Of a stretch of 64,000 bases of DNA, positions 39,066 through 46,743 are shown piece after piece. A program made the position numbers and the translations under genes. Each line of letters begins with the position of its first letter. The first letter of the stretch is position 1. A model generated the notes under the pieces. The model was not told where the DNA came from and ran no database searches. It saw nothing but the letters and a program-made list of their open reading frames with translations. The stretch is from Inquilinus sp. Marseille-Q2685 (GTDB taxonomy: Bacteria > Pseudomonadota > Alphaproteobacteria > DSM-16000 > Inquilinaceae): assembly GCF_916619195.1 (NCBI RefSeq), contig NZ_CAKAKL010000009.1:124001-188000 (forward strand), given 5' to 3'.

Positions 39066-39146
39066 GTCAATTGTGGCTGGCTCCCCGATTTGCGTGTATG
39101 CAGCGAGGGTGATCTCCGTTCCTGCCGAGAGGCCTCCCGCCACGCC

Positions 39147-39917
39147 ATGACCGACGGCCCCCTCAGCGACGGCCCCGCCGGCGACGGGCTGCGGCGCGAC
39201 GATCCGCAGCCCCTCTACCGCCAGATCAAGCAGCGGCTGCGCGAGCAGATCGAGAGCGGCGAGCTCGGCACAGATGCGAAGCTGGCGTCGGAGCGCGAGC
39301 TGGAGAAGCAGTACGGCGTCAGCCGCATCACCGTGCGCCAGGCGGTGCGCGAGCTGGTGCAGGAAGGCTGGCTGCACAGCCATCCCGGCCGCGGCTTCTT
39401 CGTGGCGCGGCGGGAGGAGACCTACGAGCTGCACCTGCTGCGCAGCTTCACCGCCATCGCCGAGGCGCATGGCCGGACGCCGACCAGCCGGTTGATCGAG
39501 GGCACCGTCTGCCGCGCGCCGGCGGAGGTGGCGCGGCCGCTGTTCCTGCCGCCCGGCGCCGATGTGGTGATGCTGAAGCGGCTGCGCTGCCTGGACGGCC
39601 AGCCGGTGGTGCTGACCCAGGACTGGTTCGCCGCCCGGCTGGTGCCGGGGATCCTCGAGCTCGACTGGTCGACCGGCAACCGCTCGCTCTATGCCGAGGT
39701 GCGCGACCGCTACCGGCTGCGCCCGGACCGCGGCCGCACCACGATGAGCGCCCGGCTGGCGAATGCGGAGGAGGCGGAGCTGCTGGAGTTGACTCCGCCG
39801 GCCGCGGTGCTGACGATCGAGCAGATCGCCTACGATCCGCAGGGCCGGCCGGTGAACATGACCTTCTCCAGCCATCATCCGCTGCGCTATCCGCTCAGCC
39901 TGGACCAGAGGGGATGA
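39147..39917 (+). CDS. GntR-family transcriptional regulator (HutC/DasR type, UTRA domain)
   Basis: The 256-residue product has an N-terminal winged helix (PLYRQIKQRLREQIESGELG, then SRITVRQAVRELVQEGWL) and a C-terminal UTRA effector domain (PPGADVVMLKRLRCLDGQPV, and RPVNMTFSSHHPLRYPLSL). Such proteins repress sugar or histidine operons and respond to sugar phosphates or metabolites. It is divergent from the GH4 sugar operon, with a perfect 22-bp palindrome between them. The ATG at 39147 is placed where homology begins; a longer frame is unsupported. Confidence 0.9.
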   Translation: MTDGPLSDGPAGDGLRRDDPQPLYRQIKQRLREQIESGELGTDAKLASERELEKQYGVSRITVRQAVRELVQEGWLHSHPGRGFFVARREETYELHLLRSFTAIAEAHGRTPTSRLIEGTVCRAPAEVARPLFLPPGADVVMLKRLRCLDGQPVVLTQDWFAARLVPGILELDWSTGNRSLYAEVRDRYRLRPDRGRTTMSARLANAEEAELLELTPPAAVLTIEQIAYDPQGRPVNMTFSSHHPLRYPLSLDQRG

Positions 39918-39953
39918 TCCGGCGTCGGACGGCCGCGGAAATGCCGCCGGGGA

Positions 39954-39985
39954 ATCACGATCCGATCACGATCCGGCTCCTAAAT
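39954..39985 (+). promoter_or_regulatory. Tandem 11-bp direct repeats with candidate -10 box (SARP-like promoter)
   Basis: ATCACGATCCG occurs twice, perfectly and back to back (39954-39964, 39965-39975). Taking the repeated heptamer as TCACGAT gives a 4-base spacer between copies, and 8 bases separate the second copy from a TAAAT -10-like box at 39981. SARP-type activators are known to bind heptamer repeats with 11-bp periodicity placed 8 bases before the -10 box. A SARP-type regulator gene lies 2.4 kb downstream. The promoter reads into the peroxidase gene. Confidence 0.5.
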
Positions 39986-40034
39986 GCTCCGGCGACGACG
40001 GATCGCGGTGCATCGAGCAAGGGAGGGGACGATC

Positions 40035-41810
40035 GTGCATGGCTCAGGTTTCACGGGGCCCGGCCAGCGTAGCGCCGCACTGACCCACGGGCTCGAACAG
40101 CCCGAGACCTATTTCGAAGGCAGCCATCCGCCGCCCGAAGGCGTGTTCGGCTGGCGGCTGGCGAAGGAGGCCGGGCGGCTGGGCCTGCATCCGCAGGCGC
40201 TGGTCATGGACGTGCTGCAGCGCCTGGCCCGCAAGATGTATCTGGACGGTCTCGTCGCCGGGCCGGAGACGTTCAATCCGGATATCCCCGCCGGCTACAC
40301 CTATCTCGGCCAGCTGATCGCGCACGACCTCACCTTCACCGATCTCGGCACCCTCTCGCGGTCGGCGGCGGCGGGGCCGCTCTGGGCCAGCCCGGCGCTC
40401 GATCTCGACTGCCTCTATCGCGGCGGGCCGTTCCGGTCGCCGATGCTGTACCAGCAGCGCCCGGGCGGGCCCGACGCGCTGCGGATGAAGCTTCGCGTCG
40501 GCTACACCGGCGGCCGGACCTGGGACAAGGAGGCGCCGGAGGTGCCCGGCGACCCGGTGACGGCCAAGGCGCCGCAGCCCCAGGACCTGGCGATGATCGC
40601 CTGCGTCGACGCCGCCACGAACGCGACCGACCTCCGCTCCCTGTCCCCATCGGCGCAGGACCTGCCGCGGCAATGCCCGGTCGAACCGCTGGTCGGCGAC
40701 ATCCGCAACGACAACAACCTGATCCTGTCGCAGATCACGGTCCTGTTCCATCGCTTCCACAACCGCATCGTCGACGCCATCCTGGCCTCGCCGCACCGCC
40801 CGTCGGACTACGAGATCTTCGAGATCGCCCGGGCCCTGGTGATCACGGCCTACCGGTCGGTGGTGCGCAACGACTATCTCGGCCATGTGCTCGACCCCGA
40901 GGTCTGGGGGAGCCTCGCTCAGCGCGACCGGCTGCAGGCCCTGGGCGGCTTCGGCCGGCGGCTCGCCGACGACGCGGACACGCCCCTGCCGGCCGAGTTC
41001 ATCATGGCCGCCTTCCGCTTCGGCCACGCCATGGTGCGGCCGTCCTACACGCTGAACCGGGCCCTGGCGCTGACCGAGACCAGCCTCAAGGGGCTGATGA
41101 CCTTCCGGCGCGGCATGCTGGCCGGGGACGGCGGCATCCCGGGCAGCCCGATCCCGAACGACTGGATCCTGGAATGGGATCTGTTCTTCCCAGAGAGGAC
41201 GGGCGGCGACGAGAACCAGTCGCACCTGATCGGCCCCTGGGTCACCGCCCAGTTCTACACGATGTCGGCCATGGCGCATGACGACATGCGCCGCATGGTC
41301 GGCGGCGACCCGATCTACGACGGCTATGGCGGGCTGCCGTTCCGGGATCTGGCGCGGGCCTATCTGTCCAGCCTGCCGAACGGCCAGTATCTCGCCGACC
41401 GGCTCGGGGTCCGGAAGCTGACGCGGGAGGAGCTGCTGGGCGACGGCCATGGCGGCCTGGCCGGCATGAATGCGCGCACCCAGCGCAACCCGCTCGCCGA
41501 GGCGCCGGAAGGGGCGATCGAGGCCCTGGCCGAGGACACGCCGCTGTTCTACTACCTGATGCGCGAGGCCGAGGTCCGCCACCAGGGCCGGCGCCTCGGG
41601 CCGCTGGGGTCGGCGATCGTCGCCCAGGTCGTCCTGGCCGCGTCCATGGTCGATTCCACGACCGTCGAGGCCGGCGTGATCCGGCGCTGGAGCCGTGCCC
41701 TGTTCAAGGGCGGCGCGGTCCCGACCAGCATGCGGGAGATCATCAGCTTCGTCGAATCGCCGCCGGCGCCCGGAGCGGGGTCGCGGCCGATCACACAGGC
41801 CAGCGTCTGA
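40035..41810 (+). CDS. Animal-type haem peroxidase (peroxidase-cyclooxygenase superfamily)
   Basis: The 591-residue product is a bacterial member of the myeloperoxidase/cyclooxygenase superfamily. YTYLGQLIAHDLTFTDLG holds the probable distal His, GDIRNDNNLILSQITVLFH and RFHNRIVD form the conserved core helix, and AAFRFGHAMVRPSYTLN is the probable proximal-His segment. No signal peptide is visible, so it is probably cytoplasmic or exported unusually. The GTG at 40035 is chosen because of GGGAGGGGAC before it; an in-frame ATG at 39984 would overlap the candidate promoter. Its substrate is unknown; it may oxidise a peptide or lipid. Confidence 0.82.
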   Translation: MHGSGFTGPGQRSAALTHGLEQPETYFEGSHPPPEGVFGWRLAKEAGRLGLHPQALVMDVLQRLARKMYLDGLVAGPETFNPDIPAGYTYLGQLIAHDLTFTDLGTLSRSAAAGPLWASPALDLDCLYRGGPFRSPMLYQQRPGGPDALRMKLRVGYTGGRTWDKEAPEVPGDPVTAKAPQPQDLAMIACVDAATNATDLRSLSPSAQDLPRQCPVEPLVGDIRNDNNLILSQITVLFHRFHNRIVDAILASPHRPSDYEIFEIARALVITAYRSVVRNDYLGHVLDPEVWGSLAQRDRLQALGGFGRRLADDADTPLPAEFIMAAFRFGHAMVRPSYTLNRALALTETSLKGLMTFRRGMLAGDGGIPGSPIPNDWILEWDLFFPERTGGDENQSHLIGPWVTAQFYTMSAMAHDDMRRMVGGDPIYDGYGGLPFRDLARAYLSSLPNGQYLADRLGVRKLTREELLGDGHGGLAGMNARTQRNPLAEAPEGAIEALAEDTPLFYYLMREAEVRHQGRRLGPLGSAIVAQVVLAASMVDSTTVEAGVIRRWSRALFKGGAVPTSMREIISFVESPPAPGAGSRPITQASV

Positions 41811-41837
41811 CGACGCCGGCTTCAGCCTGGTGGGGGG

Positions 41838-41877
41838 CCTCCGCCTCCGTCGCCCTTCGGGGCGCCGGGGGCGGAGG
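41838..41877 (+). terminator. Strong nested hairpin after the peroxidase gene
   Basis: Outer arms CCTCCGCC and GGCGGAGG enclose an inner hairpin CGCCC-TTCG-GGGCG, a very stable UUCG tetraloop. Only ATTT follows, so it is a weak intrinsic terminator at best and may instead protect or attenuate the transcript between peroxidase and the 139-aa gene. Confidence 0.5.
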
Positions 41878-41951
41878 ATTTAAGCGGCGGCCGGTCGGCC
41901 GGCGCCGTACAGGAAGGGCAACATCGCTTTGCGAACACGGAGGAGAGAGCC

Positions 41952-42371
41952 ATGACGGACCACAACAAGCACGATCCGAAGCAGGTGCCGAAGCACGCGC
42001 CGGTCGAGATGACCATGTACGACCGCGAGGCCGCGGGGCGGCTGATCGTCGGCATGGCGATCGGCGAGATCCCGAGGCCGAAGACGACGGAAGAGGCGCT
42101 GCAGCTGCTCAAGGACCACGGCATCACCCTGTCGAACTTCGCCGAGTCCGGGAAGGAGATCCGGGTGGTCAGCCGCGACGAGGCGCTCTACGTCGTGCTG
42201 CCGCCGGCCGACCTGATGCGGCAGCGGATCGAGGAGTACTCGAAGTATCCCGGCCCCTACCCGCTGCCGGACGAATACGCCCTGCAGGTGCGGCGCGACA
42301 AGGACGCGCTCGACGCCCTCGACATGTTCTATTTCCGGGTCGGCGACTACAGCTTCGGTCAGTGCCGGTGA
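41952..42371 (+). CDS. Orphan 139-residue protein with NHLP-leader-like segment
   Basis: I do not recognise this protein by family. A strong GGAGGAGAGAGCC precedes the ATG. The N-terminus is polar (HNKHDPKQVPKHAP). Residues about 44-80 (EEALQLLKDHGITLS, then KEIRVVSRDEALYVVLPPAD) resemble the pattern of nitrile-hydratase-like leader peptides, with a Gly after a helix, a strand ending xIRV, and then VLP. The C-terminal 55 residues are rich in Tyr, Asp and Arg and end SFGQCR with the only Cys. A YcaO gene is close by, so it could be a modified peptide precursor or a partner protein. It overlaps the end of the opposing SARP gene by 13 bases. Confidence 0.65.
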   Translation: MTDHNKHDPKQVPKHAPVEMTMYDREAAGRLIVGMAIGEIPRPKTTEEALQLLKDHGITLSNFAESGKEIRVVSRDEALYVVLPPADLMRQRIEEYSKYPGPYPLPDEYALQVRRDKDALDALDMFYFRVGDYSFGQCR

Positions 42372-44428
42372 GGCCAGTAGAGCTGCTCCTCGCCGACATC
42401 GGCCGCGGGAAGGCCGGCCTGGATCAGGCCTTCCCGCAGCTCGCGCCAGCGCACGGCGTTGCGGATCGGGAAGCTGCTTAGGAACCACTCGACGATGGCG
42501 GCGTCCGTGCATTCCAGCTCGGCATGCCAGGACTCGCGGGCGTTGCGCAGGAAGAGGCGCGCCTCCTCCTGCGCCCGGCGGACGTCGCCGAGCCGGGCGA
42601 GGGCAGCCGCCTTCCAGGCGGGAATGTTGAAGATCGACTGGCCGGCCCGGTCGGCGGCCTCGACGCAGCCTGCGATGTCGCCGTGCAGGAAGCGGATGCC
42701 GGCGAGATAGGCCCAGTGATGGGGCGGGATCATCGGGTTGAGCTCGAAGGCATTGGCCACGAGGTCGAGCGCGACGTCGGTCCGGTCGACGAAGGCGAAG
42801 CCCTGCGCCGCCGACATCAGCACCGATGGGTTGCTCGGGTTCAGGTCGCGCGCCAGCTCCAGATGCAGGTCGGCCTGCGGATAGCGGGTGGTCATCATGT
42901 AGGACCAGGCGAGGGTCAGATGCCCGCGCGCGTCCAGCGGGTCCAGCTCCGCCGCCCGCCGCGCCAGCGTCAGCGCCTCCTCGGCCATGGCGCGGTCGCG
43001 GCGCACCCCCGGCAGGATGATGTGGCGGGAGTTGTAGATGTTGGCGAGGCCGCTATAGGCCGGGGCGAAGCTGGGCCACTCCCGGATCACCTCCTTGAAC
43101 AGGGCCTCGGCCTCGAACTCCGCCTGGGGTTCCCAGAAGTTCAGGAGGTACTGGCCGCGCAGCCAGCGGACATAGGGCCCGTGCGCGAAATCGCGATCGC
43201 CGATCTGCCGCGACAGGGCGTTCGCCGAGATATGGATGTCGAGCGTCGCCGCCACGCGGCGGGCGATCTGGCGCTGCTGGTCCATCCAGGACGGCAGCGC
43301 CAGGGAGAAGGTCTCCGACCAGAGCGATCGGTTGCGGGTCAGCTCGATCAGCGAGACGACGATCAGCAGATCGTCGTCCTTGTGCCGGAACGCGGTGGAC
43401 AGCCGGTAGTCGACCTGCTGCGGGGCCCCGGCCTCGGGCTGCGCGTCCGGCGGCTCGACCACGATCCATTCCCGGAACCGCACGAGATTGGCGATCAGCT
43501 CGCTGCGGAAGCCGTGGACGACGTAGTCGTCGATGCCTTCCGGGAGGCCGGGGGTCAGGCGGTCCACCTCGATGATGGGCAGCCGGGATTGCTCCGCGAC
43601 CGGCGTCGCGGAAGGCTGCGCCGTGCTGTCGACCGATCCCTTCTTGATGTCGACGATCAGGCGCTGCGTCTCCTCCGACGGCTCCATGTCGTAGTCGTTC
43701 TGCAGCAGGTCCCACAACGTGCCGTACAGCTTCAGCGCCGCCGCGATGTTGCCGCGCAGCGCCTGCTGCAGGATCAGGACGCGGTATGCCTCCTCATGCG
43801 TCGGGTCGATGTCGAGCAGCGCATGGGCCGCCTCGGCGGCGATCTTCTCGCCCGAGGCCGGATCGCGCAGGATCCGTTCCAGGCCGCCGATGAAGGTCTT
43901 GCGCCATTGCTGCCGGCAGACCGTGAGCCAGGAGGCGAATTCCCGGTCGAGGTCCTCGAACCCCGCCATGATCCGGTCCGGATTGGCCAGGCCGAGCGCC
44001 AGGATCGACGACAGGACGCCCTTCGCCAGGTCGGCGGCGACCAGCTCGAGGTCGATCTCGATGGATTCGCGCCGGATGCGGATGTCCTGACGCCCGATCT
44101 CGACGATGCCCGGGCGGACGGTGTCGAGATTGTCGCGCAGCTGCTTTAGGCATTGCCGCAGCGAGCCGCGGGCATGATCGCCGTCACTTTCGCTCCAGAA
44201 CACCCCGGCGACGCGCTCGCGGCTCTCGATCGCCGTGCCGCTCAGCGCGACGAAGGCGAAGATCGCCTGGGACTTGCGGCTGCCCAGCTCGATCCGTTCC
44301 CCGTTTTCCAGGCGGAGATCGAAACCATTGCCCAGAGACAACCGCAGACGCTCTACACCAGCTGTCTCCGGCGCGGGTATGTCTTCCCGATCCGGAGTCC
44401 TCGCGCTCCGTAGTGCCGGAACCGCCAT
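42359..44428 (-). CDS. SARP/BTAD-type transcriptional regulator with TolB-like and TPR regions
   Basis: The 689-residue product has an N-terminal winged-helix region (residues about 25-115, IELGSRKSQAIFAFVAL and RERVAGVFWSESDGDHAR). A bacterial transcriptional activation domain follows (about 120-255, ALRGNIAAALKLYGTLWDLL). A TolB-like segment comes next (VVHGFRSELIANLVRFREWI, SLWSETFSLALPSWMDQQ), and then TPR repeats to the C-terminus. This layout is that of large SARP-like activators. GGGAG precedes the ATG at 44428; a GTG overlapping the ycaO stop is also possible. It is downstream of the YcaO gene on the same strand. Confidence 0.82.
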   Translation of the reverse strand: MAVPALRSARTPDREDIPAPETAGVERLRLSLGNGFDLRLENGERIELGSRKSQAIFAFVALSGTAIESRERVAGVFWSESDGDHARGSLRQCLKQLRDNLDTVRPGIVEIGRQDIRIRRESIEIDLELVAADLAKGVLSSILALGLANPDRIMAGFEDLDREFASWLTVCRQQWRKTFIGGLERILRDPASGEKIAAEAAHALLDIDPTHEEAYRVLILQQALRGNIAAALKLYGTLWDLLQNDYDMEPSEETQRLIVDIKKGSVDSTAQPSATPVAEQSRLPIIEVDRLTPGLPEGIDDYVVHGFRSELIANLVRFREWIVVEPPDAQPEAGAPQQVDYRLSTAFRHKDDDLLIVVSLIELTRNRSLWSETFSLALPSWMDQQRQIARRVAATLDIHISANALSRQIGDRDFAHGPYVRWLRGQYLLNFWEPQAEFEAEALFKEVIREWPSFAPAYSGLANIYNSRHIILPGVRRDRAMAEEALTLARRAAELDPLDARGHLTLAWSYMMTTRYPQADLHLELARDLNPSNPSVLMSAAQGFAFVDRTDVALDLVANAFELNPMIPPHHWAYLAGIRFLHGDIAGCVEAADRAGQSIFNIPAWKAAALARLGDVRRAQEEARLFLRNARESWHAELECTDAAIVEWFLSSFPIRNAVRWRELREGLIQAGLPAADVGEEQLYWPHRH

Positions 44429-44475
44429 CCGCGGTCTCCCTTCCCCCAACCAATTGAAACCGCAGCGGACTGGGC

Positions 44476-45840
44476 TCACAAACTATTAAATATCGCCGGG
44501 CGTTCGATCAAATCATTCAGCGGGCGCCCGAACTGTGAGGCCGTCTGGCGCAGACCCTCCGTCATCGCGGCGGCAGAGGAGGGCTGCAGGTCCGGCGATA
44601 GCAGCTTCACGACGGGAATCCCAGCCCTCCCGGTCAGATCGACCCGGAAAATCGCGATGCCCCGCCGGACGATGCCGGCCAGGAGGCCGGGCAGGGAGTC
44701 CGGCGCGCCGGTGCTGCCCTCCGCCGCGTCGTCCTGCGCCGTGGCCAGCAGCGTCTCGGGCCGGAGCCGGCGCTTCGCGGCCAACCGTGCCTGGTCCGCG
44801 GGCGCCGGCGCTGGCCCGGCCCGGCGCAGCCGGAGGAACAGGAGGTCGTTGGCGATCTCGGACTGGACCATCTCCAGGACCGCGGCCTCCAGCGCGGCGG
44901 CCCGGCCGGGACGCGCGGCGAAGCCCAGGGCGACCAGGCCATGGACGGGGCTGACGGAGGCCGCGGCGACGACGGCGAGCGGCAGGCCGTCGGCATCGAG
45001 CTCCAGGGCGAAGCCCTGGCGCGGCCAGGGCGTGCCGACCCCCGGGCGCAGCCGGCCGATCGCGGCGGCCATCAGCGCCTGCGGCAGCCGGCGGGCGGGA
45101 CGGCCGCCATGCCACCAATGGGCCACCACATGCCGCTCCACCAGCTCGAACACGGCCGATCGGGTGGCGTCCTCCAGCGTCGGGCCCGCGGCGCAGCCCT
45201 CGCTGACCGGGACGGCGGCCCGCAATCCGTCCGACGGGCCGAAGACGAGCGGCCGCGGCACCAGGACGGGGCGGCCGGTCGCCAGCTCCGTGCCGCCCAC
45301 GACCGGGGCGGCGTCAAGGGCTGCGGCCGAATCCATGCCGGTCCGCGCCTCGACCTGGCCGGCGAAGCGGGGGCCGATGGTCTCGATCCCGCCGTCGCGG
45401 GCGGCGTCGCCGATCCCGGGCGCGGCCAGCGCCATCGTCTCCGCGGCCTCGCCGATGCACTTCTGGAAGGCGCGCCACGGGCTCGGGTCGCATCCGATCA
45501 CGCCGTCCGCGGCGATGGCTGCGCCGCCGCCGGCGGGCCGGCGCAGCCGGGCGCCGAGGACGGTCAGGCCGGGATAGTCCGTCGCCGGCACCGCGAAGCT
45601 GGCCTCGAGCGTCGCGGCCAGGCGGAACAGCCGGGCGGTGCGGCCGTCCTCGTCGCTGCCGTCCGGCGTCACCCCGAAGGCGGCCAGAAGCCGCCGGGCC
45701 TCTTCCGCCGCCCGGCCGGCTGCGTCAGAGTCGGCGGCGCCGGAGGCTCGCTCGAACAGCAGGGCACAGGCGTCGTAGACGGAGGGCGTTGCGAGCATGA
45801 TGCTCCGGATGACGGGCGGGATCTCCGCCCATTTCACCAT
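44476..45840 (-). CDS. YcaO-family protein (ATP-dependent amide activation)
   Basis: The 454-residue product has YcaO hallmarks: PWRAFQKCIGEAAETMALAA for the first E-x-x-E metal/ATP helix, EGCAAGPTLEDATRSAVFEL followed by VERHVVAHWW for the second, and FRVDLTGRAGIPVVKLLSPD near the C-terminus. YcaO enzymes phosphorylate peptide backbone amides to make azolines, amidines or thioamides. No cyclodehydratase partner, TfuA or dehydrogenase is encoded nearby. An internal ATG at 45798 with CCGGAG before it is an alternative start. It precedes the SARP gene and is divergent from the fructosamine-kinase gene by 33 bases. Confidence 0.85.
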   Translation of the reverse strand: MVKWAEIPPVIRSIMLATPSVYDACALLFERASGAADSDAAGRAAEEARRLLAAFGVTPDGSDEDGRTARLFRLAATLEASFAVPATDYPGLTVLGARLRRPAGGGAAIAADGVIGCDPSPWRAFQKCIGEAAETMALAAPGIGDAARDGGIETIGPRFAGQVEARTGMDSAAALDAAPVVGGTELATGRPVLVPRPLVFGPSDGLRAAVPVSEGCAAGPTLEDATRSAVFELVERHVVAHWWHGGRPARRLPQALMAAAIGRLRPGVGTPWPRQGFALELDADGLPLAVVAAASVSPVHGLVALGFAARPGRAAALEAAVLEMVQSEIANDLLFLRLRRAGPAPAPADQARLAAKRRLRPETLLATAQDDAAEGSTGAPDSLPGLLAGIVRRGIAIFRVDLTGRAGIPVVKLLSPDLQPSSAAAMTEGLRQTASQFGRPLNDLIERPAIFNSL

Positions 45841-45873
45841 GGGAGCCGCGAAACGCGTGGTGCTTTTTCACGA

Positions 45874-46743
45874 ATGCCGTCTCTGACCGCCCTCGATCCT
45901 GATCTCGCCGACCGCATCGCCGCGGCGCTCGGCGTGCGGCCGGCGGCGGCCGAGCCGCTGCCGGGCGGGTCGACCGTCGCGGTGCTGCGGGTCGACCTCG
46001 CCGATGGCGGCCGGGTGGTGGCCAAGGCCGGGCCGGGCCCGCTGCTGCTGGAGGCGTGGATGCTGGGCGAGCTGGCGCGGCATTCCGGCCTGCCGCTGCC
46101 GGCGGTGCTGCACGCGACCGAAGACCTGCTGCTGCTGGAGCATGTCGAGCACGAGCCCGGGCCGCCGCCGCCGGCGGCGCAGCTGCACGCCGCGGAGCTG
46201 TTGGCGGCGCTGCATGCGCCGGCCTGGCCGCGCTTCGGCTACGGCCGCGACACCACCATCGGCAAGCTGCCGCAGCCGAATCCACCCGCCGACCGCTGGG
46301 TCCCGTTCTTCCGCGACCACCGCCTGCTGCACATGGCCCGCGCCGGCCATGCCGAGGGCACGGTCGACGCGGCGCTCCTGCGCCGGCTGGAGGCGCTGGC
46401 CGGGCGGCTCGAGGGGCTGCTGTCGGAGCCGCGGCATCCCGCGCTGCTGCACGGCGACATCTGGACCGGCAACCTGCTGCACCGGGGCGGGCGAATCGCC
46501 GCCTTCATCGACCCCGCCATCTCCTGCGGCCATCCGGAGATGGAACTGACCTATCCGACGCTGTTCGGCACCTTCGACGAGATTTTTTTTCGCCGTTATG
46601 CCGAGCTGGCGCCGCTCGATTCCGGCTTCTGGAACGACCGCCGGCCGATCTATCTGCTGTATCCGCTGCTGGTCCACGTCCGGTACTGGGACCCGGCCTA
46701 TGCCCAGCCGATCCGCCGGATTCTCGACCGCTACGGCGTCTGA
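45874..46743 (+). CDS. Fructosamine kinase family protein
   Basis: The 289-residue product resembles fructosamine-3-kinase/ketosamine kinase proteins with an aminoglycoside-phosphotransferase-like fold. PALLHGDIWTGNLLHRGGR carries the catalytic Asp, AAFIDPAISCGHPEMELTY the metal-binding Asp, and PLPGGSTVAVLRVDLADGG the nucleotide loop. A role in repair of glycated proteins is expected from the family. It starts 33 bases from the divergent YcaO gene. Confidence 0.88.
   Translation: MPSLTALDPDLADRIAAALGVRPAAAEPLPGGSTVAVLRVDLADGGRVVAKAGPGPLLLEAWMLGELARHSGLPLPAVLHATEDLLLLEHVEHEPGPPPPAAQLHAAELLAALHAPAWPRFGYGRDTTIGKLPQPNPPADRWVPFFRDHRLLHMARAGHAEGTVDAALLRRLEALAGRLEGLLSEPRHPALLHGDIWTGNLLHRGGRIAAFIDPAISCGHPEMELTYPTLFGTFDEIFFRRYAELAPLDSGFWNDRRPIYLLYPLLVHVRYWDPAYAQPIRRILDRYGV

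Follow-up and report, generated by a model that had tools for sequence, protein, structure and literature searches.

What could an animal-type haem peroxidase, a 139-amino-acid (aa) protein of no known family, a large regulator and a YcaO enzyme do together at one locus? This question is raised by a four-gene block at positions 39984-45840 of a 64,000-nucleotide stretch of the genome of Inquilinus sp. Marseille-Q2685 (contig NZ_CAKAKL010000009.1, positions 124,001 to 188,000), which is called the window here and to which all coordinates without a prefix refer. An earlier note on this DNA had listed the four genes and proposed that they belong to a single pathway, the 139-aa protein being its substrate or an adaptor. 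All four genes are present and open where that note had placed them (Table 1), and it is well supported that they constitute one module. We consider it fairly probable, judging from sequence comparison, that this is a post-translational modification module, in which YcaO and the peroxidase would act chemically on the small protein at its C-terminal tail.

The earlier note had looked to conserved linkage across several genera as support for a system, and such linkage was found. In single-protein searches of 289 genomes of the class, relatives of YcaO were detected in 4 and relatives of the peroxidase in 11 genomes, the own genome counted. In three genomes from other families (G108, G245 and G111) the four genes are all present, arranged and oriented as in the window. 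The YcaO gene of G108 is cut by the contig end; the loci with a YcaO cut in this way are L047 and L010. The only addition from 18 genomes of the family of G108 was G304, in which regulator, small protein and peroxidase lie together and no YcaO was seen in the part of the contig that was read (12,000 of 19,200 bases); the families of G245 (23 genomes) and G111 (one genome) gave no further blocks. When the regulator was compared by tblastn with 72,556 plasmid records, 290 records matched, of which eight were read. Blocks with a small protein of the window's kind (type I) occur in Paroceanicella profunda and Mesorhizobium huakuii, the latter with YcaO on the opposite strand. In Phaeobacter inhibens, Paracoccus aminovorans and P. 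denitrificans the block is of type II: the small protein has about 240 aa, and the YcaO gene lies behind that of the peroxidase. QY30 has YcaO, regulator and peroxidase with a third kind of small ORF (open reading frame), and in Paracoccus SMMA_5_TC the YcaO, peroxidase and small-protein genes (L063:4608-7711) lie about 42 kb from the regulator (L059:6953-8851) on one plasmid. The parts thus recur together in Rhodobacterales, Hyphomicrobiales and several further alphaproteobacterial families.

The association is also visible in domain counts. Among 327 genomes of the class, Pfam YcaO was found in 42, An_peroxidase in 25 and both in nine, and in five of these nine (G000, G108, G111, G245 and G287) the two lie within 4 kb of each other. 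G287 (L070) is an outlier: its YcaO groups with the one from G301, a cyclase-like domain is found in its TPR regulator, and the candidate small ORF is without the tyrosine motif described below; leaving it out, adjacency is seen in 4/8. It is included among the 13 block peroxidases discussed below, and both G287 and QY30 are excluded from the count of small-protein tails; the near-copies L007-L010 and L064 were left out of this count and of the trees. A profile of the type I small proteins matched five of 385 class genomes, and four of these matches adjoin YcaO and peroxidase genes, so that the 139-aa family was not seen to be widespread without YcaO, the finding that the earlier note had named as speaking against a shared pathway. 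The fifth match (G266, E 0.005) was taken as chance, as were the weak matches that 17 more genomes of the class gave with the 139-aa protein (E 0.007-0.09). Plasmid searches with the YcaO and the small protein of G245 gave no match, in the case of YcaO perhaps because of low-complexity masking, and those with the small proteins of Paroceanicella and QY30 found only themselves.

Within the taxonomic order of the window the 139-aa family is present in 5 of 17 genomes, the own genome counted, and all five belong to one genus. Inquilinus genome G001, of the same genus, is without it; here the two genes found on either side of the block in the window, for GntR and fructosamine kinase, are direct neighbours, and the segment with all four genes is missing. 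Because a 16-base string before the G001 kinase, consisting of a ribosome binding site and GTG, is near-identical to the string at GTG 40035 of the window (one-base indel difference), the comparison points to a loss of the block in G001 that left the peroxidase start behind as a scar, the alternative being a gain in the other genomes. The scar also suggests that GTG 40035 is the true peroxidase start, and this codon has a better ribosome binding site than ATG 39984. Where the block is present it is under purifying selection: dN/dS, the ratio of nonsynonymous to synonymous substitution rates, is 0.17-0.53 for all four genes in 16 comparisons with four Inquilinus relatives (82 codons in the case of the L010 YcaO) and 0.22-0.28 for the 139-aa gene. 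One contig carrying the Inquilinus block, with 92% identity of the small protein, is named Mycobacterium sp. KBS0706 (L008, NZ_VCCH02000019.1); this name looks wrong.

The small protein itself has no Pfam or NCBIfam match, and its six type I relatives from other lineages are only 19-32% identical to it. Against this divergence its C-terminal end stands out. Arg129, Asp132, Tyr133 and Cys138 are invariant in the type I alignment, as is Tyr103, and the last 11 columns are among the top three of 116 windows by conservation. A tail of the form [VLF][GA][DI]Y-x4-C plus one or two residues ends the small protein in 11/11 loci (seven type I and four type II), whereas a Cys within the last three residues occurs in just 3 of 66 neighbouring annotated proteins. 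The best hhalign alignment between type I and type II proteins pairs their final 19 residues over the full length. AlphaFold, run with five near-identical Inquilinus rows, gave the 139-aa protein a mean pLDDT (predicted local distance difference test) of 44.2, with 38 and 27 for the last two blocks. A core rich in Cys, Ser and Thr is not present, as the tail holds one conserved Cys. We read the small protein as the probable substrate of the modification, and the conserved Tyr-x4-Cys tail makes this role likelier than that of an adaptor. The one-pathway proposal of the earlier note thus gains support from the recurrent linkage and is extended by the conserved tail, which that note did not contain; the substrate role is still something that we infer. 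A stretch that by eye resembles V.V...hhlPP raised the possibility of a nitrile-hydratase-type leader (NHLP) and was rejected, as searches of NCBIfam, Pfam and PDB with the type I small proteins and that of G287 gave no match to a leader-family model or to nitrile hydratase. An EF-hand-like match in the small ORF of QY30 (L058:10491-11042), which ends in TFAFTRCR, is weak and stays below cut-off (E 0.006).

The YcaO protein of the window is a clear family member (Pfam 104.1 bits, cut-off 25.7). While a PDB search with this single sequence gave no match, a profile of four block YcaOs matched LynD (6e-23), TruD (2e-22), MusD (2e-18) and, more weakly, MJ1094 (2e-16). Glu232, Glu235, Arg236, Glu323 and Glu328 are kept in 10/10 aligned YcaO rows (the row from L058 including bases upstream of any start codon) and Glu131 and Glu134 in at least 90%; these conserved Glu and Arg residues we take to be the nucleotide site. 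In a tree of 32 YcaO rows, in which the 19 non-block rows are a chosen subset of the YcaOs listed, the 11 block YcaOs form one fork with moderate support (87/85), and the G287 YcaO and a second YcaO of P. denitrificans are placed outside it. The latter (SYS_L057b, L057:4572-6137) lies upstream of the regulator and belongs to another part of the tree.

The peroxidase (65.8 bits, cut-off 25) keeps the catalytic residues of its family. Distal Gln and His, Arg and proximal His are present in 13/13 block peroxidases, Arg and proximal His being anchored on myeloperoxidase, which together with 8s6c was matched by their sequences; a PDB search with a comparison peroxidase gave no match. The surroundings of the haem are different. 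The Asp before the distal His is found in 0/13 block peroxidases and in 13/13 comparison peroxidases (8 + 5, the five without annotated YcaO nearby), and the Glu three residues past the Arg is lost in 11/13 block peroxidases and kept in all 13 for comparison; the window's own peroxidase has both residues changed. The equivalent Asp and Glu in myeloperoxidase bind the haem covalently through ester links. Because of these changes in the haem site the block peroxidases likely have a different oxidation chemistry. Two side observations concern other peroxidases: in G245 a vanadium chloroperoxidase-like gene (L048:6513-8165) adjoins the block peroxidase on the opposite strand, and in Rhizobium sophoriradicis (L102:4854-9714) a comparison-type haem peroxidase gene has a Dyp-type peroxidase gene after it, with one gene between them.

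For the regulator, which the earlier note had described as SARP-BTAD-TPR (SARP, Streptomyces antibiotic regulatory protein), the BTAD part stands (32.7 bits, cut-off 22.1), and the TPR matches are below cut-off. An N-terminal OmpR-type DNA-binding domain is unmatched in the window and has weak matches, below cut-off, in Phaeobacter and Paroceanicella. The protein is 36-40% identical to three block relatives. In Polymorphobacter (L061:7394-10787) a relative of the regulator faces a YcaO-TfuA fusion without a peroxidase match, which was set aside as a different system; as an observation of its own, it indicates that the BTAD-TPR family may mark YcaO loci more widely.

How the module could work may be outlined as follows. 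YcaO, from the cyanobactin-heterocyclase branch, would spend ATP on activating one of the backbone amides close to the C-terminal end of the small protein. The invariant near-terminal Cys is the likeliest site, where a thiazoline-type ring would be formed. The peroxidase would then either oxidise this ring from thiazoline to thiazole or act on the invariant Tyr five residues upstream, where a Tyr-centred change or a crosslink might result. The small protein would serve as a carrier with a body that diverges or is replaced and a tail, VG[DI]Y-x4-C, that hardly changes. The constancy of this tail and the lack of a protease and an exporter in the block make it probable that the product is a single conserved group inside the cell, be it a protein-borne or excised cofactor, a metal ligand or a signal, and not an exported antibiotic that diversifies. 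Control of the block probably lies with the BTAD-TPR regulator.

Several points weigh against this modification scheme. Between type I and type II small proteins hhalign gave a probability of 0.7% and E 0.078, so that relatedness is not recognisable, and the small ORFs of QY30 and G287 have a terminal Cys and no Tyr motif; they were left uncounted, as they had partly been selected for their Cys ending. The block peroxidases are not united in a single clade (2 changes), and the position and strand of YcaO vary between loci, as in Mesorhizobium and type II. YcaO reaches 65.5 bits with the SagD-type model TIGR03604, below the NCBIfam cut-off of 219.25, and no leader-binding partner (RRE, RiPP recognition element) was identified, RiPPs being ribosomally synthesised and post-translationally modified peptides. 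The regulator also occurs apart from the block (L059), and the family to which it belongs extends far beyond the block: of the remaining 282 plasmid records most come from Rhizobium and Sinorhizobium, with an identity of about 25% among those listed.

The small protein might instead be an adaptor or a subunit of the peroxidase, whose tail docks in YcaO or the peroxidase, with another protein or a small molecule as the true substrate. There is a precedent in YcaO-TfuA, which thioamidates a host enzyme, and with 130-243 aa the small proteins are long for precursors, have a single Cys in the tail in both types and, in type I, contain body columns such as Tyr103 that are invariant too. We nevertheless regard this as unlikely, given that between types I and II the body is exchanged and the tail Cys retained, a pattern more in keeping with a site of reaction than with a body that docks, and that no other candidate substrate gene recurs, the segment missing from G001 holding these four genes only.

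Quite improbable to us is an ordinary exported azol(in)e antibiotic of the TOMM/LAP class (thiazole/oxazole-modified microcins and linear azol(in)e-containing peptides) in which an unusual oxidase replaces the flavin dehydrogenase. The block YcaO is indeed nearest to the cyanobactin heterocyclases, and that of QY30 ends in PNPVPLLV, similar to the PxPxP end typical of azoline-forming YcaOs; by eye, however, no such end is present in the other nine aligned YcaOs, one of which is possibly wrong near its ends. Antibacterial RiPP cores are typically variable and richer in Cys, Ser and Thr than the nearly invariant tail with its one Cys and few Ser/Thr, and no E1-like partner, protease or exporter was matched in the block and its two neighbours. 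That the genes merely travel together without a joint reaction, as a stress peroxidase, a YcaO for another target and a regulator, seems highly improbable. The distant regulator of SMMA_5_TC and the different gene order of the types would agree with it, whereas the adjacency of YcaO and peroxidase in 5/9 genomes, the haem-site change that block peroxidases have in common and that is absent in 13/13 comparison proteins, and the common tail all speak for a joint function.

Returning to modification of the tail, known YcaO systems provide partial parallels. As in LynD, TruD, MusD and other TOMM/LAP cyclodehydratases, of which these three are the best solved-structure matches of the block profile, YcaO has the nucleotide-site Glu/Arg residues and a candidate substrate gene adjoins it. 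Unlike those systems the block is without a matched E1-like domain or partner, flavin dehydrogenase, protease and exporter and has a haem peroxidase instead, and its small protein is long with a constant one-Cys tail. With YcaO-TfuA thioamidation (thioamitides; McrA modification) it would have in common that YcaO acts on a peptide or protein backbone, although no TfuA match was found in the window block and MJ1094 is a weaker match than LynD. Mycofactocin is a RiPP cofactor with a conserved core, made by radical-SAM (S-adenosylmethionine) enzymes; it may be likened to the block in that the probable product is the constant C-terminal end of a ribosomally made protein, the block having YcaO and a peroxidase in place of radical-SAM enzymes. 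Compared with the animal enzymes myeloperoxidase and lactoperoxidase, the peroxidases of the block have retained distal Gln/His, Arg and proximal His and lack the Asp (13/13) and the Glu (11/13). In the standalone-YcaO RiPPs bottromycin and streptamidine YcaO is likewise unfused to another domain, but the precursors are short, those of the streptamidine family having 31-89 residues and coming from Actinobacteria and some Firmicutes (PMC8442711), while the small protein of the block is long. The word peroxidase is absent from the main text of PMC8442711 and PMC8120280, and searches of a library of open-licence papers, outside which subscription papers and supplements lie, gave no title or abstract opening on a pathway of YcaO with a haem peroxidase. 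New here are the common tail of the small proteins and the Asp loss common to the block peroxidases.

Table 1. Coordinates of the block, its parts and its flanks in the window
Feature	Position	Strand	Basis
Animal-type haem peroxidase	40035..41810	+	An_peroxidase 3.7e-18; ORF open from ATG 39984
139-aa small protein, probable modification substrate	41952..42371	+	no known family; homologues in same block elsewhere
Small-protein C-terminal tail FRVGDYSFGQCR, residues 128-139, and stop codon; proposed modification site	42336..42371	+	alignment, conservation ranking, type II proteins
BTAD-TPR (SARP-like) regulator	42359..44479	-	Pfam BTAD 1.1e-7
Standalone YcaO enzyme	44476..45840	-	Pfam YcaO 1.2e-29; LynD/TruD/MusD profile matches; Glu/Arg residues kept
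Segment missing in Inquilinus genome G001	39914..45891	.	GntR and fructosamine kinase genes adjoin there
GntR/UTRA regulator, flank outside block	39090..39917	+	Pfam scan; G001 comparison
Fructosamine kinase family gene, flank outside block	45871..46743	+	Pfam scan; G001 comparison

The 3' ends of the 139-aa gene and the regulator gene overlap by 13 bases (42359-42371), as the earlier note had seen, and the YcaO and regulator genes overlap by 4 bases, which it did not mention. The strong ribosome binding site that it had reported for the 139-aa gene is present as GGAGGAGAG before the start codon. Its description of a YcaO without TfuA, E1-like and SagB-type partners agrees with the scan made for these, which covered six genes of the genome (the block and its two neighbours) and gave no match. 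None of the PADLOC anti-phage models matched at E 0.01 when six proteins were compared (four from the window, two from Phaeobacter), promoter and Rfam scans gave nothing useful, and with a GC content of 0.708 the block is not set apart from its flanks (0.701 and 0.691). The first seven codons of the fructosamine kinase ORF at its annotated length (window 45871-45895) fall in the DNA missing from G001, so the start of this gene varies between strains.

YcaO enzymes are responsible for some of the most unusual backbone changes known, and their pairing with an animal-type haem peroxidase, if true, would give them a new oxidative partner. As a tentative and rather doubtful extension, the block may represent a new class of YcaO modification, in which a standalone YcaO and an animal-type peroxidase lacking the ester-forming residues build a single conserved Tyr/Cys-derived group, be it cofactor, metal ligand or signal, at the C-terminal end of unrelated, exchangeable carriers that have converged on one tail. 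The tail gives a prediction at residue level, Cys138 and Tyr133 of the window protein, and the haem-site change is a sequence mark by which further members could be spotted. If the constant tail is the product, it would be a new ribosomally encoded cofactor-like group.

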